Source: an uncultured Maribacter sp. (GTDB lineage: Bacteria > Bacteroidota > Bacteroidia > Flavobacteriales > Flavobacteriaceae). From it: 64,000 nucleotides of DNA. Under the pieces are notes generated by a model. That model saw only the letters and a list, made by a program, of their open reading frames with translations, did not search any database and was not told the origin of the DNA. The stretch spans positions 186,001 through 250,000 of the forward strand of contig NZ_CANMDU010000006.1 in the NCBI RefSeq assembly GCF_947496775.1, in the 5' to 3' direction. The position numbers were made by a program, and so were the translations under genes. Positions 36,001 to 41,315 of the stretch are shown here, one piece after another. Numbering within the stretch: position 1 is the stretch's first letter; every line of letters begins with the position of its first letter.

Positions 36001-36762
36001 TTAGCTATTTACCTTTTTCATCTGACTCTTTAACTCTTCCATAGATTCTTGTAGTTGTTTTAGCAACCCTTTTTCAGTAGTAGCATCTACACCAAAGGTT
36101 ATTTTGCTATTCACTTCCCATATCTCTTGGATTTGAAAAGGCTCAATATCATAAGGAGGATAGGATTCGTTCAAAGATACTAAGGTTACATTATCTGAAT
36201 TAGGCTTTCTAATTACTTTCTTAACTAAAACAGCATCTTGTAATACCACAACGTATATTTTATTAGGATTTATATCCTCTATACTTTCTGTAGCCTTAGC
36301 CAATACCCATTCTCCAGATTTTAAATTAGGTAACATGCTATCCCCTTCTACCTGGAAGCCCCTATAAGTAGCGTTTCTAAACTCCGGTAAGGGCAAATCA
36401 AAAGCAGGTAACTCTTTATACCAGCTGGTATCCTCTATATTCTGGGGATAACCCGCAGCTGCCTTAGCGTTTACAAGAACCATATTATCATTCTCCGAAG
36501 AATCTACCGTAACCACTTTGGGAATAACACTACTAGCAGATGTTTCTATATACTGCTGTGGACTTTCCCCGAATAACCATAATGGATTAATTTTATATTG
36601 CTTCAACAACTCTACAACTACTTTACCAGACAATTTTGTTCTACCCCTTTCTATATCCGCTGTAGTGTTGGATACTCCTATTTGTTTAGCAAACTCAGAT
36701 TGTGTAAAACCCAATTCTCTTCTTAAATCGGTAAAACGTTTTAAAATAGCCTCATTTTCCAT
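36001..36762 (-). CDS. XRE-family regulator with S24 (LexA/CI-like) peptidase domain
   Basis: 253 residues. N-terminal helix-turn-helix (about 7-60, ELGFTQSEFAKQIGVSNTT), linker, then an S24 domain with an Ala-Gly pair (Ala103-Gly104), catalytic Ser142 in GDSMLP and Lys181 in VLVKKV. A short coiled coil (about 228-250) ends the protein. Such regulators bind as dimers and may be inactivated by RecA-stimulated self-cleavage during DNA damage. Its upstream gap holds four GGA-N5-TCC sites and faces a two-gene unit tied to DNA repair. No other phage genes are nearby, so a prophage repressor is unlikely. Confidence 0.9.
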   Translation of the reverse strand: MENEAILKRFTDLRRELGFTQSEFAKQIGVSNTTADIERGRTKLSGKVVVELLKQYKINPLWLFGESPQQYIETSASSVIPKVVTVDSSENDNMVLVNAKAAAGYPQNIEDTSWYKELPAFDLPLPEFRNATYRGFQVEGDSMLPNLKSGEWVLAKATESIEDINPNKIYVVVLQDAVLVKKVIRKPNSDNVTLVSLNESYPPYDIEPFQIQEIWEVNSKITFGVDATTEKGLLKQLQESMEELKSQMKKVNS

Positions 36763-36780
36763 AATTCAAATATACGTAAT

Positions 36781-36860
36781 TAGGATTATTTCCAAAAATA
36801 TTTATGGATTATTTCCATAATTAGGAATTATTCCATATTTTTGGATTAATTACAGAAATA
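36781..36860. promoter_or_regulatory. four tandem GGA-N5-TCC operator-like sites
   Basis: Sites begin at 36783 (GGATTATTTCC), 36806 (within TTATGGA-TTATT-TCCATAA, 36802-36820, a perfect 7-bp inverted repeat), 36824 (GGAATTATTCC) and 36843 (GGATTAATTAC, degenerate right arm). Spacing is 23, 18 and 19 bases, about two helical turns. They fill the gap between the S24 regulator and the divergent 63-residue gene and are the likely binding sites of that regulator. Confidence 0.7.
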
Positions 36861-36866
36861 GGTATT

Positions 36867-37058
36867 ATGATTTTTGAAGAACTACACTCTAAAATATACG
36901 CAATAGCAGCAATAAGCGATGAGGATACATTTATGAAAGTAATTCCAAGAAAGAATAAAAGAAACTTCGGATTTGGAAATATTCCAAAAAACGACCGTAC
37001 TCGATTAAATAAAAAGACTATAAGTACAAAAGCAATTCAATTATCCTTATTCAATTAA
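36867..37058 (+). CDS. 63-residue protein ending in a beta-clamp-binding motif (QLSLF)
   Basis: I do not recognise a family. The product is basic (PRKNKRNFGFG, RTRLNKK) and ends in I-Q58-L59-S60-L61-F62-N63, an exact match to the QL(S/D)LF consensus by which polymerases and repair proteins bind the sliding clamp DnaN. The reading frame is preceded by the operator array and followed after 2 bases by the DUF4130-type gene, so they are probably one operon under the S24 regulator. It could be a stand-alone clamp ligand or adaptor for its neighbour, or the remnant tail of a longer repair protein. Coding status rests on context and motif. Confidence 0.6.
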   Translation: MIFEELHSKIYAIAAISDEDTFMKVIPRKNKRNFGFGNIPKNDRTRLNKKTISTKAIQLSLFN

Positions 37059-37060
37059 TT

Positions 37061-37822
37061 ATGGAAGAAACCAAAACATTAATTTACGACGGGAGCTTTA
37101 ATGGGTTTTTAACGGCAATTTATTATGCATTTGAAACAAATAAAAGTGGTATTATAATTCAAAAAAAAGGTGACAAACCATCTGGAATATTTTCTAACTC
37201 ATCCATTATTTTTACAGACATGAGAAAAGCTCAAAATGTTTGGAAAACAATACAGAATAAAAATAACGCAGCCATTAAAAACATTTATTTTGCCTTTCTA
37301 AGTGAAAATAAAAATATAGAGAACCAGCTTTATTTATATATAAAAAATCTCTTTAACCCATATATAGCATCTCAAATTGGCTATTCCATTGTCATTCAAA
37401 TTAAATTGGAAAATACTGCTCTTAGGGTTGCAAAAGAGAAAAAATATTTAGAAAAATCTATTGAATTTCAATTGTCCAAGGACCAAATTCTATTTTCAAA
37501 TATTTCTCCAAATAACGATGTCTTACCTCTGATATCCAAATACTTTAGGACAAGACATAACTCAAAATTTTGGTTAATATATGATGTAAAAAGAAACTAT
37601 GGTATTTATTATAATACATTCGGCATTGAAACTATCTCAATAAATACAAACCAAATATTGGAGTATAAAACAAACAATAATATTGGTAAAACTAAAAAAA
37701 TACCAGAGTTAAACAATTACTTTCAATTAAATGATATAAATACACTGGTGTTAAATAAATTGCATAATGAAAGTTCATTTAATACTTTAAGTGATATAAA
37801 TGTTAAAAACATTGCTATTTAA
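37061..37822 (+). CDS. TIGR03915/DUF4130-type putative DNA repair protein with divergent C-terminus
   Basis: 253 residues, near the family length. Conserved features: IYDGSFNGFLTAIYYAFE at the N-terminus, TDMRKAQNVWK, IYFAFLSE, LPLISKYFRTRHNSKFWLIYD and KRNYGIYYN. Members normally pair with a radical-SAM protein (TIGR03916) and are thought to act in DNA repair or modification; mechanism is not established. The usual end (a WKxYF segment followed by basic residues and RYW) is largely replaced: only NNYF remains and the last 30 residues are unlike the family. No radical-SAM gene is in this window. Co-transcribed with the QLSLF protein. Confidence 0.75.
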   Translation: MEETKTLIYDGSFNGFLTAIYYAFETNKSGIIIQKKGDKPSGIFSNSSIIFTDMRKAQNVWKTIQNKNNAAIKNIYFAFLSENKNIENQLYLYIKNLFNPYIASQIGYSIVIQIKLENTALRVAKEKKYLEKSIEFQLSKDQILFSNISPNNDVLPLISKYFRTRHNSKFWLIYDVKRNYGIYYNTFGIETISINTNQILEYKTNNNIGKTKKIPELNNYFQLNDINTLVLNKLHNESSFNTLSDINVKNIAI

Positions 37823-37830
37823 TAAGCGAC

Positions 37831-38358
37831 TTACTTGCTTTTATCTCCCACAAAGTGGTCACTTTTATTATTAAACAAAACATTAAATGTGGTTAAGCTA
37901 CCATAAATTCTTGTTAAATACTGTTGCAAATCTACCTTCTCTTGGTCGTCCAAATTTTTACTAGAGTTGATTTTTTGCTCCATGACCCTAATTCTATCTC
38001 TGACCATTACAATTTTATGAAAAAAAGTAGCAATAGGAATTTCTTTATTAGCAAGATTAATATCTCCAGGTTGCAAAATTAAAGTTCCTTTTTTCCATTT
38101 ATCCGCTATCGGGCTAACAGAAGAAGCATCACTCCATTTTCGTAATATAGAAACTAAAGACTGCTCAACCTCAGAAAAACTAATGCTATCCACTTCATCC
38201 TCTACAGCTTCAATAACCTCAAAATTAGCATCTATAGAAATGGTTTCTAAGCCAGCATCTATAAATGTTACCCAATACAATGATGAGGTAACGTTAGTAA
38301 CCACACCTTTACCATACTCTTTATGGTGTATTCTTGACCCTATTCCTAAAATCTTCAT
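37831..38358 (-). CDS. Tudor/KOW-like protein adjacent to uvrA, unknown function
   Basis: 175 residues. About 5-50 (GIGSRIHHKEYGKGVVTNV ... WVTFIDAG) is a small SH3/Tudor-like barrel of the kind found at the end of UvrD/PcrA and in CarD-type proteins. About 55-170 is predicted helical, with an acidic stretch (EAVEDEVDS) and a coiled-coil-like segment (VRDRIRVMEQKINSSKNL). Conserved position next to uvrA suggests a role in transcription-coupled or nucleotide excision repair, but this is inference. Convergent with the DUF4130-type gene, divergent from uvrA. Confidence 0.7.
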   Translation of the reverse strand: MKILGIGSRIHHKEYGKGVVTNVTSSLYWVTFIDAGLETISIDANFEVIEAVEDEVDSISFSEVEQSLVSILRKWSDASSVSPIADKWKKGTLILQPGDINLANKEIPIATFFHKIVMVRDRIRVMEQKINSSKNLDDQEKVDLQQYLTRIYGSLTTFNVLFNNKSDHFVGDKSK

Positions 38359-38480: not shown

Positions 38481-41315
38481 ATGATAAACTACGAGGAAAA
38501 TATTGAAGTTAAAGGTGCTAGGGCGCATAACCTAAAAAATATTGATGTTACTATACCCAGAGAAAAATTAGTTGTAATCACTGGTTTATCTGGTAGTGGC
38601 AAATCTTCCCTAGCTTTTGATACTATTTATGCCGAAGGACAACGTAGATACATAGAAACATTCTCGGCATATGCCCGTCAATTCCTAGGAGGCTTGGAAC
38701 GTCCTGATGTGGACAAAATAGATGGCCTATCCCCTGTCATAGCAATTGAACAAAAAACAACTTCTAAATCTCCACGATCTACAGTAGGCACTATCACAGA
38801 AGTCTATGATTTTTTGCGACTTCTTTTTGCCAGAGCTGGTGATGCATACAGCTATGTAACTGGAGAAAAAATGGTTAGTTATAACGACAATCAAATTAAG
38901 GAATTAATACAGCTAGATTATGCGGATAAGAAAATTTCTATTTTATCTCCTATAATTAAATCTCGTAAAGGCCATTACCGAGAACTTTTTGAACAAATAG
39001 CTAAACAAGGTTTTGTTAAGGTTCGGGTAGATGGAGAAATAAAGGATATTGTAAAGGGCATGAAAGTAGATCGCTACAAAACTCATGATATTGAAATTGT
39101 AGTTGACCGTCTTAAAATTAATGAATCGACCGATTTAGATAAAAGACTTACGGAAACTATTAACACTGCTATGTATAGCGGCGAAAATGTTTTAATGGTT
39201 TTAGAAGAAGGCCAAGCAGAACCTCGTTATTTTAGCCGAGACTTAATGTGTCCTACTTCTGGAATTTCGTATCCATCCCCCGAACCAAATACATTTTCCT
39301 TTAATTCCCCTAAAGGAATGTGTAAATACTGTAGCGGTCTAGGGCATGTTTTTGAGGTTAATGAAACCAAAATATTTCCAGATAAAAAATTATCTATAAA
39401 AGAAGGTGGCATTGCCCCTCTTGGCCCATACAAAAACTCTTGGGCTTTTAAACAAATTGACACTATTGCTCAGCGTTATAATTTTAAAATTACTGACCCC
39501 ATAAACAAGCTACCAGAAGATGCCTTGGAAATCCTTTTGCACGGGGGCAAAGAAAGTTTTGAGGTTGAATCTAAAACATTAGGCGTAAAACGGAACTATA
39601 AAATAGACTATGAAGGTATTTCTAACTTCATTAAAAGTCAGTTCAAAGAAGCCGAATCCACTTCTATAAAAAGATGGGCTAAAGAATATATGGACCAAAT
39701 TGAATGTCCAACTTGCGATGGTTCTCGGCTACGAAAAGAATCATTAAACTTCAAAATAAACGAGAAAAACATATCCGAACTTTCTAATCTAGATATTTCC
39801 GATTTAGCAAAATTCTTTAAAGGATTAACAAAAAAATTAGAAGCAAATCAACTAATCATTGCTGATGAGATTATTAAAGAAATCAAAACTAGAGTCCAGT
39901 TTCTTTTAGATGTTGGTTTAGACTACCTTTCTTTAAACAGAAGCTCTAAAACTCTTTCAGGCGGTGAAGCGCAGAGAATACGTTTAGCTACTCAAATAGG
40001 CTCCCAATTAGTAGGAGTTTTATATATATTAGATGAACCAAGTATTGGCTTGCACCAAAGGGATAATGTTCGTCTTATAAAGTCTCTAGAATCTTTAAGA
40101 GATATTGGAAACTCTGTAATTGTTGTAGAACATGATAGAGATATGATAGAAAGAGCAGACCACGTTATTGATATTGGCCCCAAAGCCGGAAAACATGGTG
40201 GGCAAATAATTTCCGAAGGAACTCCAGATCAACTAAAAAACCACCATACTCTTACTGCCGATTATATCACAGGTAAAATAGAAATTGCGGTTCCTAAAAA
40301 ACGTAGAAAGGGTAATGGAAAAAAAATACAACTCAAAGGTTGCTCAGGAAACAATCTTAAAAATATAGACGTCGAATTTCCTTTGGGTCAAATGCTAGGT
40401 GTAACAGGTGTTTCTGGTAGTGGAAAATCTACACTCATTAATGAGACTTTATACCCTATTATGAATGCCCATTATTTTAATGGCGTAAAAGTTCCAATGC
40501 CTTATAAAAAAATAACGGGTCTAGAACACATTGATAAAGTCATAGACATTAACCAATCTCCAATAGGCAGAACTCCAAGGTCCAATCCAGCAACATACAC
40601 AGGCGTTTTTAGTGAAATACGGTCTTTATTCACAAAAACAACGGAAGCTTCTATTCGTGGATACAAACCTGGAAGATTTAGTTTTAATGTAAAGGGGGGG
40701 CGTTGCGAAACTTGTCAAGGTGGTGGACTTAAAGTTATTGAAATGAACTTTTTGCCGGACATCTATGTAGAATGTGAAACCTGTAATGGCAAACGTTTTA
40801 ATAGAGAAACTTTAGAAGTACGCTACAAAGGTAAATCCATTGCTGATGTTCTGGAAATGACGATTGATGAAGCGGTTGATTTCTTTTCCCCTATACCTAA
40901 AATATACAGAAAACTAAAAACCATACAAGATGTTGGTTTAGGTTACATTTCCCTAGGACAGCAATCCACCACTTTATCTGGTGGAGAAGCACAACGTATA
41001 AAGCTTGCCACCGAACTATCTAAAAGAGATACAGGGAACACATTTTATATATTAGATGAACCCACTACTGGTCTTCATTTTGAAGATATTAGAGTTTTAA
41101 TGGAAGTTTTAAACAAATTAGCAGACAAAGGTAATACCGTATTAGTAATTGAACACAATTTAGATGTTATTAAAATGGTGGATTATATCATAGATATTGG
41201 TTATGAGGGTGGTAGAAATGGAGGAATGGTCGTATCCAAAGGAACACCTGAACAAGTTTGCAAAGATAAAAAAAGCTATACTGCACAATTTTTAAGAAAA
41301 GAATTAGGTTTATAA
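38481..41315 (+). CDS. uvrA: excinuclease ABC subunit A
   Basis: 944 residues. Two ABC ATPase halves: Walker A GLSGSGKSS (35-43) and GVSGSGKST (about 640); signature loops LSGGEAQRIRLA and LSGGEAQRIKLA; Walker B YILDEPSIGLH and YILDEPTTGLH. The C-terminal zinc finger (CETCQGGG ... CETCNGKR) is intact. The first zinc finger has C257-P-T-S260 instead of CxxC, paired with C281-x2-C284. UvrA recognises bulky DNA lesions with UvrB. It is followed after 31 bases by the LOG gene. Confidence 0.97.
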   Translation: MINYEENIEVKGARAHNLKNIDVTIPREKLVVITGLSGSGKSSLAFDTIYAEGQRRYIETFSAYARQFLGGLERPDVDKIDGLSPVIAIEQKTTSKSPRSTVGTITEVYDFLRLLFARAGDAYSYVTGEKMVSYNDNQIKELIQLDYADKKISILSPIIKSRKGHYRELFEQIAKQGFVKVRVDGEIKDIVKGMKVDRYKTHDIEIVVDRLKINESTDLDKRLTETINTAMYSGENVLMVLEEGQAEPRYFSRDLMCPTSGISYPSPEPNTFSFNSPKGMCKYCSGLGHVFEVNETKIFPDKKLSIKEGGIAPLGPYKNSWAFKQIDTIAQRYNFKITDPINKLPEDALEILLHGGKESFEVESKTLGVKRNYKIDYEGISNFIKSQFKEAESTSIKRWAKEYMDQIECPTCDGSRLRKESLNFKINEKNISELSNLDISDLAKFFKGLTKKLEANQLIIADEIIKEIKTRVQFLLDVGLDYLSLNRSSKTLSGGEAQRIRLATQIGSQLVGVLYILDEPSIGLHQRDNVRLIKSLESLRDIGNSVIVVEHDRDMIERADHVIDIGPKAGKHGGQIISEGTPDQLKNHHTLTADYITGKIEIAVPKKRRKGNGKKIQLKGCSGNNLKNIDVEFPLGQMLGVTGVSGSGKSTLINETLYPIMNAHYFNGVKVPMPYKKITGLEHIDKVIDINQSPIGRTPRSNPATYTGVFSEIRSLFTKTTEASIRGYKPGRFSFNVKGGRCETCQGGGLKVIEMNFLPDIYVECETCNGKRFNRETLEVRYKGKSIADVLEMTIDEAVDFFSPIPKIYRKLKTIQDVGLGYISLGQQSTTLSGGEAQRIKLATELSKRDTGNTFYILDEPTTGLHFEDIRVLMEVLNKLADKGNTVLVIEHNLDVIKMVDYIIDIGYEGGRNGGMVVSKGTPEQVCKDKKSYTAQFLRKELGL

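Follow-up and report, generated by a model that had tools for sequence, protein, structure and literature searches.

The 63-residue microprotein encoded in the window (the whole 64,000-nt stretch analysed here, from an uncultured Maribacter sp.) is best read as an adaptor, induced by damage, that links an enzyme-less TIGR03915 protein to the clamp, both being encoded in a non-canonical LexA SOS operon; confidence in this interpretation is moderate. In an undamaged cell the S24 repressor, bound to its operator array, would silence its own gene and the divergent pair. After damage, self-cleavage of the repressor at Ala103-Gly104 is expected, and the microprotein and the TIGR03915 protein would then be produced, probably by co-translation. 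The N-terminal segment of the microprotein, which resembles that of a radical-SAM protein, would dock on the TIGR03915 protein and the QLSLF tail would plug into the sliding-clamp pocket, thereby bringing the TIGR03915 protein to stalled forks, also the expected site of action of the co-regulated Pol IV and DnaE. The pair is proposed to descend from an SOS repair operon made up of a radical-SAM gene (TIGR03916) and a TIGR03915 gene; the enzyme would have been lost, and the TIGR03915 protein has lost residues that never vary in proteins accompanied by the enzyme. This reading draws on the constant presence of the regulator, its cleavage residues and its operators at comparable loci, the operator-linked Pol IV–DnaE and PA0069 genes, the clamp-like motifs in Pol IV and the PA0069 protein, the absence of TIGR03916, the presence of TIGR03915 in every genome with TIGR03916, the uniform tails of the radical-SAM proteins, the co-occurrence of microprotein and TIGR03915, and the N-terminal resemblance.

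Table 1. Features of the putative SOS locus, in window coordinates
Feature	Position	Strand	Remarks
XRE-S24 regulator, assigned to the non-canonical LexA type (GGA-N5-TCC group)	36001..36762	-	Pfam HTH_3 + Peptidase_S24; A103-G104, S142, K181/K182
Operator 1, GGATTATTTCC	36783..36793	.	Perfect; fits the published GGA-N5-TCC motif
Operator 2, GGATTATTTCC	36806..36816	.	Perfect GGA-N5-TCC
Operator 3, GGAATTATTCC	36824..36834	.	Perfect GGA-N5-TCC
Operator 4, GGATTAATTAC	36843..36853	.	Imperfect; the sole near match counted in the regulator gap
63-aa clamp-tail microprotein, C-terminus AIQLSLFN	36867..37058	+	22 orphan-locus members + 2 radical-SAM-bearing loci
GGA-N5-TCC site inside the microprotein ORF, GGAAATATTCC	36975..36985	.	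Perfect; same place in 6/6 same-genus microprotein loci
Orphan TIGR03915/DUF4130 protein, 253 aa, C-terminal region diverged	37061..37822	+	NCBIfam TIGR03915

The source genome (G000) comprises 3.96 Mb and is 99.76 % complete. ORF positions and domains confirm what the first-pass annotation had described, an XRE-S24 regulator facing a two-gene unit; the first ORF of this unit does end in the QLSLF sequence motif taken there for a beta-clamp motif, and its stop codon is separated by 2 nt from the start of the second. The second product is of the TIGR03915/DUF4130 type as proposed, scoring 120.2 bits against TIGR03915 (cut-off 112.25; profile positions 1–198 of 243) and 60.2 bits against the Pfam DUF4130 profile. 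All four named relatives of this protein from one scan are labelled Maribacter. Of the four matching inverted repeats in the earlier description three are perfect operators, the fourth is imperfect, and a fifth, perfect site lies within the microprotein ORF. Convergent with the TIGR03915 gene, a 175-aa protein (37831–38358, minus strand) weakly matches the PcrA/UvrD tudor domain (E 0.0088; 16.3 bits against a cut-off of 23.9), and uvrA (38481–41315, plus strand; 1390 bits) is located one gene past the pair.

For comparison, 42 loci with an orphan TIGR03915 gene were collected from 23 genus groups, 18 from a scan of 198 relatives and 24 from a scan of 397 family genomes; L063–L065, apparent copies of counted loci, were left out. 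An S24 regulator is divergently adjacent to TIGR03915 in all 42, with 53–94 % identity to that of the window, itself one of the 42. The regulator of the window matches HTH_3 with 34.7 bits and Peptidase_S24 with 52.3 bits, and all 42 regulators keep the scissile Ala-Gly together with the Ser and the Lys, either of two neighbouring lysines being accepted as the catalytic one. Regulator gaps at these loci contain a mean of 2.98 perfect operators (range 2–5) versus 0.007 in mononucleotide shuffles. Within the source genome, tandem operators (two GGA-N5-TCC sites with A/T spacers, 4–16 nt apart) are found at four places, and the reversed pattern used as a control is found at none. Thus, the operator array exceeds chance expectation. 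Besides the present locus, such sites precede a Pol IV gene with a DnaE-type polymerase gene behind it and a PA0069-family radical-SAM gene (L132:3475–4548, contig C7; 458 bits, cut-off 360); the fourth place overlaps the end of an IS1595 transposase gene (C1:885933, about position 4434 of L131). The last has no clear downstream target, and the IS1595 element may have severed an SOS gene from its operator there. Clamp-like motifs are present in operator-linked proteins of the same genome, QINLF in Pol IV and a terminal QMKLF in the PA0069 protein, which adds another clamp-tailed radical-SAM protein to the likely regulon. A further scan of the genome returned 11 matches versus 3 for the control, four of the places lying outside the tandem sites (two on C1 and one each on C3 and C5). 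The site inside the microprotein ORF also occurs in L067, L069, L070, L071 and L072, although its conservation could instead reflect the encoded residues.

Bacteroidetes S24 repressors have been described to bind GGA-N5-TCC, and in the portion of Sanchez-Osuna et al. (2021; PMC8565304) used here EMSA and mitomycin-C RT-qPCR demonstrate the motif in a different flavobacterium, with a regulon of DinB-DnaE, SplB and a COG1573-COG4277 operon. Domains, cleavage residues and operators strongly support assignment of the regulator–operator half of the locus to this known ‘non-canonical LexA’ kind of Flavobacteriaceae SOS repressor. Given the cleavage residues together with operators at its own promoter and at the Pol IV–DnaE and PA0069 genes, this is very probably the organism's own SOS repressor. 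The suggestion of an SOS-like module was therefore right but not new, the residues being conserved throughout and the operators fitting the motif seen by EMSA and RT-qPCR.

DUF4130 has been predicted to be a mutagenesis-related enzyme tied to SplB-like radical-SAM proteins and uracil DNA glycosylases (excerpts of PMC3765255, 2013). Profile search gave no match for the TIGR03916 radical-SAM partner in the near-complete source genome. Among the 198 relatives TIGR03915 is present in 52 and TIGR03916 above its cut-off in 34, a 35th match being far below it; among the 397 family genomes the counts are 138 and 101, and all 101 are included in the 138. These counts describe the genomes sampled rather than the Flavobacteriaceae as a whole. 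Canonical TIGR03915 proteins of the 101 TIGR03916-bearing genomes score 249–286 bits, compared with 75–218 bits in the 36 genomes that lack TIGR03916 and carry more than a fragment; a 37th, G217, has a 57-bit fragment. Both kinds are found in G340, as a canonical pair (L206) with no regulator in the fetched flank and as an orphan TIGR03915 gene (139.7 bits) beside the regulator (L189). The radical-SAM protein itself ends in Q[LM]xLF in 71 of 71 distinct proteins collected, 67 recognized by a scripted pattern and four printed as exceptions that read QLELF or QLALF.

The 42 orphans were examined at the positions conserved to at least 90 % in 63 canonical rows, a set that includes near-copies. 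Residues kept in 88–100 % of orphans include Y9, D10, G11, F13, G15, F44, T52, S81, E82, P156, L157, W171, D175 and R178. Those mostly lost include H128 (12 % retained), R135 (12 %), R165 (36 %), D168 (26 %), Q169 (26 %), R229 (2 %), R242 (7 %) and W244 (10 %). Most residues of the canonical flavobacterial REKHRM, RYADQ and C-terminal PKRYWKYL stretches are gone. For the canonical C-terminal part the median score is 99.1 bits in the 63 canonical rows, 2.5 bits in microprotein-bearing orphans and 1.3 bits in other orphans, and the window protein scores 2.8 bits; some of it is retained in L074 (53.7 bits), L181 (33.3 bits), L066 and L068 (30.9 bits) and L184 (25.4 bits). Stand-alone remnants of the canonical C-terminal part are also present, L204 in G217 and L205 in G456, and G456 elsewhere holds an orphan TIGR03915 copy with a microprotein (QPSLF tail). 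A structure model of the window protein from a five-row alignment was unusable (mean pLDDT 40.9), and a sequence search of solved structures gave a best E of 1.5. The first-pass annotation had proposed a damage-inducible repair unit. SOS control is supported; DNA repair by the product of the pair is doubtful, since the genome yielded no radical-SAM partner and invariant TIGR03915 residues are gone.

The microprotein is located directly upstream of TIGR03915 in 22 of the 42 orphan loci, spanning 12 genus groups. Nineteen were recognized by a first tail pattern, L181 (QFTLF) and L193 (QPSLF) by a wider one and L192 by eye. In the other 20 loci, no microprotein was found by ORF scan (with three-frame translations for 11 of them), and TIGR03915 has neither a microprotein nor a radical-SAM gene beside it. 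Thus, the role of TIGR03915 at those loci does not require the adaptor, which weighs against the adaptor reading. Conserved order of the three genes had been named at the outset as a check on the proposed unit, and it was found: the regulator and TIGR03915 are adjacent at every orphan locus, and all three genes occur together at about half of them.

Searches of Pfam, NCBIfam and PADLOC gave no match for the 63-aa ORF. Members of the family share KLxxxAxxGxxD, a basic middle and a QxxLF tail; an 18-row alignment gives the consensus M....I..KL...A..G..D plus a QLSLF tail, with A14, Q58, L61 and F62 invariant. Clamp-binding motifs have a QL[SD]LF-like consensus. AIQLSLFN fits this sliding-clamp-binding motif, and the microprotein may thus be a candidate clamp binder. 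A position-free search of the 397 genomes with a profile of the microprotein, a search that did not extend to G001 and G003, matched 21 genomes: 19 known orphan loci and two canonical ones, G244 and G423, where the order is regulator, microprotein, radical-SAM, TIGR03915. An upstream ORF with a pattern-type tail is present at 4 of 60 distinct radical-SAM loci, and only those of G244 and G423 are microprotein-like. Given this coexistence, the microprotein is not merely a substitute for the enzyme.

Resemblance between the microprotein and the radical-SAM protein is seen at both ends, and stands beside the coexistence of the microprotein with the full protein in two genomes. Of the two best hhalign matches, one joins the N-termini (columns 2–27; P 6.6e-4, probability 27 %) and the other the C-termini (P 1.3e-3, probability 18 %). 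None of 250 column shuffles reached the hhalign match, nor did any of 300 when the N-terminal columns alone of 16 thinned rows were used. In a comparison anchored at the start codon, I6, K9, L10, A14 and D20 coincide (83 identities out of 256 possible); none of 20,000 column permutations was as high, and the next best offset gave 45. Both analyses used 22 or 16 microproteins with the two of genus group g201 left out, and before anchoring L190 was moved one position and L180 two, following the alignment. The (near-)invariant radical-SAM residues R5, E8, I12, D15, A16, A17, K18 and Y19 are mostly absent from the microproteins. Single microproteins score weakly against an HMM of the radical-SAM N-terminus: that of the window scores −1.4 bits and the best, L079, 7.9 bits, a value reached by 2 of 2666 decoys and by 1 of the 726 shuffles that received a score; two microproteins received none. 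Because the scores overlap those of decoys and shuffles, this HMM was dropped as evidence; fragments of radical-SAM proteins that slipped in among the decoys probably account for the top two (75.1 and 18.2 bits). Partial homology between the microprotein and the radical-SAM protein is likely, and is graded no higher because single scores are weak, the invariant residues are not shared and a QLxLF-type tail can arise through convergence. The low hhalign probabilities and the weak single-sequence scores also weigh against the adaptor interpretation, as does the coexistence in G244 and G423.

A further reading, put forward only tentatively, is that the microprotein represents the radical-SAM enzyme in miniature, with docking helix and clamp tail joined by a short basic linker and the catalytic body of more than 350 residues omitted. 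It would have arisen beside the full enzyme, a state still found in g201, and would have taken over tethering upon loss of the enzyme. If so, an SOS repair enzyme complex would have been converted to a non-enzymatic, damage-induced clamp complex that keeps TIGR03915 at the fork. A simpler version, in which the microprotein is left over from in-place deletion of the radical-SAM gene, was rejected: G244 and G423 hold microprotein, radical-SAM and TIGR03915 genes in one row, and coexistence within one genus (g201) shows the simple deletion-remnant form to be wrong.

A larger-model tree was built from 73 of 105 TIGR03915 rows, leaving out six long-branched orphans (L198–L203), seven near-copies and 19 canonical rows removed by thinning. 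All 22 microprotein-bearing orphan rows are in one 29-row orphan clade (SH-aLRT 94, not starred) nested among canonical sequences, and two other orphan groups, both without the microprotein, are located elsewhere. In a simpler-model tree of all 105 rows the microprotein-bearing rows are not one clade (7 changes). A single clade of all orphan TIGR03915 proteins was rejected with a p-AU of 0.0137 (35 rows versus 38), in a test run after the tree was seen. L142 (G244), which has both microprotein and radical-SAM genes, is outside the 29-row clade; thus, the microprotein either predates enzyme loss there or was transferred.

Loss of conserved residues could also mean slow decay, in which case the TIGR03915 gene and the small ORF would be leftovers beside the regulator after loss of the radical-SAM gene. 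Orphan TIGR03915 proteins are without the invariant residues and the C-terminal region, the microprotein is missing from 20 of 42 orphan loci, and the stand-alone canonical fragments in G217 and G456 show that decay occurs. However, the matched part of TIGR03915 is free of stops in 42/42 orphan loci across the 23 genus groups, and most of the core YDGSF, LSE and W.IYD..R residues are retained. Judged by dN/dS, the microprotein is under purifying selection, with values of 0.16–0.47 in 8/8 same-genus pairs (NG86; dS partly saturated); the corresponding values for TIGR03915 are 0.11–0.32 in the 7 of 8 pairs having usable dS. Decay of the pair is considered unlikely.

Acting independently of TIGR03915, the microprotein might instead be a damage-induced clamp blocker, its QLSLF tail competing with replicative or repair proteins and slowing replication. 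A short protein that terminates in a consensus-like clamp motif and is encoded behind SOS-type operators could compete alone. Such a role is improbable, given that the microprotein was never seen without TIGR03915 (21/21 profile-matched genomes), sits immediately 5' of TIGR03915 or, in G244 and G423, of radical-SAM–TIGR03915, and has a conserved N-terminal motif besides the tail.

In Acinetobacter, DdrR is a co-repressor encoded by a small gene beside that of the S24 regulator UmuDAb. The window likewise has a small gene divergent from an S24 regulator, and a corresponding role as co-repressor or anti-repressor is very improbable: regulators of at least 44 % identity occur without TIGR03915 in sixteen genomes, the microprotein profile matched no TIGR03915-less genome among the 397, and the conserved clamp-type tail would have no role. 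A defence system was also considered and rejected: in PADLOC the regulator matched capH and HTH_VI only weakly, and three further proteins submitted had no match.

SOS regulons hold many uncharacterized parts, of which TIGR03915/DUF4130 is a common one, and among the open-licence PMC papers searched DUF4130 is named in just one, as a prediction only (PMC3765255, as excerpted). A natural enzyme-less variant that keeps the partner and a clamp tail separates the partner's own role from the one that serves the enzyme, and the residues lost along with the enzyme provide a ready list of candidate enzyme-coupled positions. If the adaptor reading is true, the microprotein would also provide a natural example of a clamp adaptor controlled by a LexA-type repressor. 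Searches of open-licence PMC papers found none with TIGR03915 or TIGR03916 by name, no match for radical-SAM/UdgX wording, and, among the matches listed, no title on a clamp-binding SOS microprotein of the present type. The first-pass annotation knew of no described system with this make-up; the regulator, the operator and the parent repair operon are in fact already described, and for the clamp-tail microprotein and the enzyme-less TIGR03915 variant no description was found in those papers.

Compared with the canonical TIGR03916/TIGR03915 pair, the window has a TIGR03915 homologue and the same placement of the regulator, which is opposite the pair in the fetched flank of 12 of 30 canonical loci (L032–L061). 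Unlike the canonical pair, its genome is without a TIGR03916 match, the TIGR03915 match ends at 198 of 243 profile positions, and a microprotein occupies the slot. Mutasomes of the ImuA-ImuB-DnaE2 type are SOS-controlled and clamp-linked. The window resembles them in its predicted SOS control and candidate clamp link; in L210 (G118) and L211 (G017) the repressor faces a row that by eye combines Pol IV–DnaE with radical-SAM–TIGR03915, the row of L211 being preceded by an SRAP-looking protein (MCGRATI start) and another small ORF. Unlike these mutasomes, the window locus has no polymerase, Pol IV–DnaE being located elsewhere in the genome behind the same operators. The small protein of the window differs from the co-repressor DdrR in its clamp-type tail and in accompanying TIGR03915. 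An S24 regulator with a small SOS protein is the feature shared with UmuDAb-DdrR of Acinetobacter (PMC11332147). Closest to the regulatory half is the non-canonical LexA regulon (PMC8565304, in the portion cited above), with its S24 repressor bearing a phage-type HTH and Ala-Gly/Ser/Lys, its GGA-N5-TCC operators, and its DinB-DnaE and radical-SAM targets. That regulon itself includes the COG1573-COG4277 repair operon; unlike that part of the description, the window has the microprotein and a form of the operon without the radical-SAM gene.
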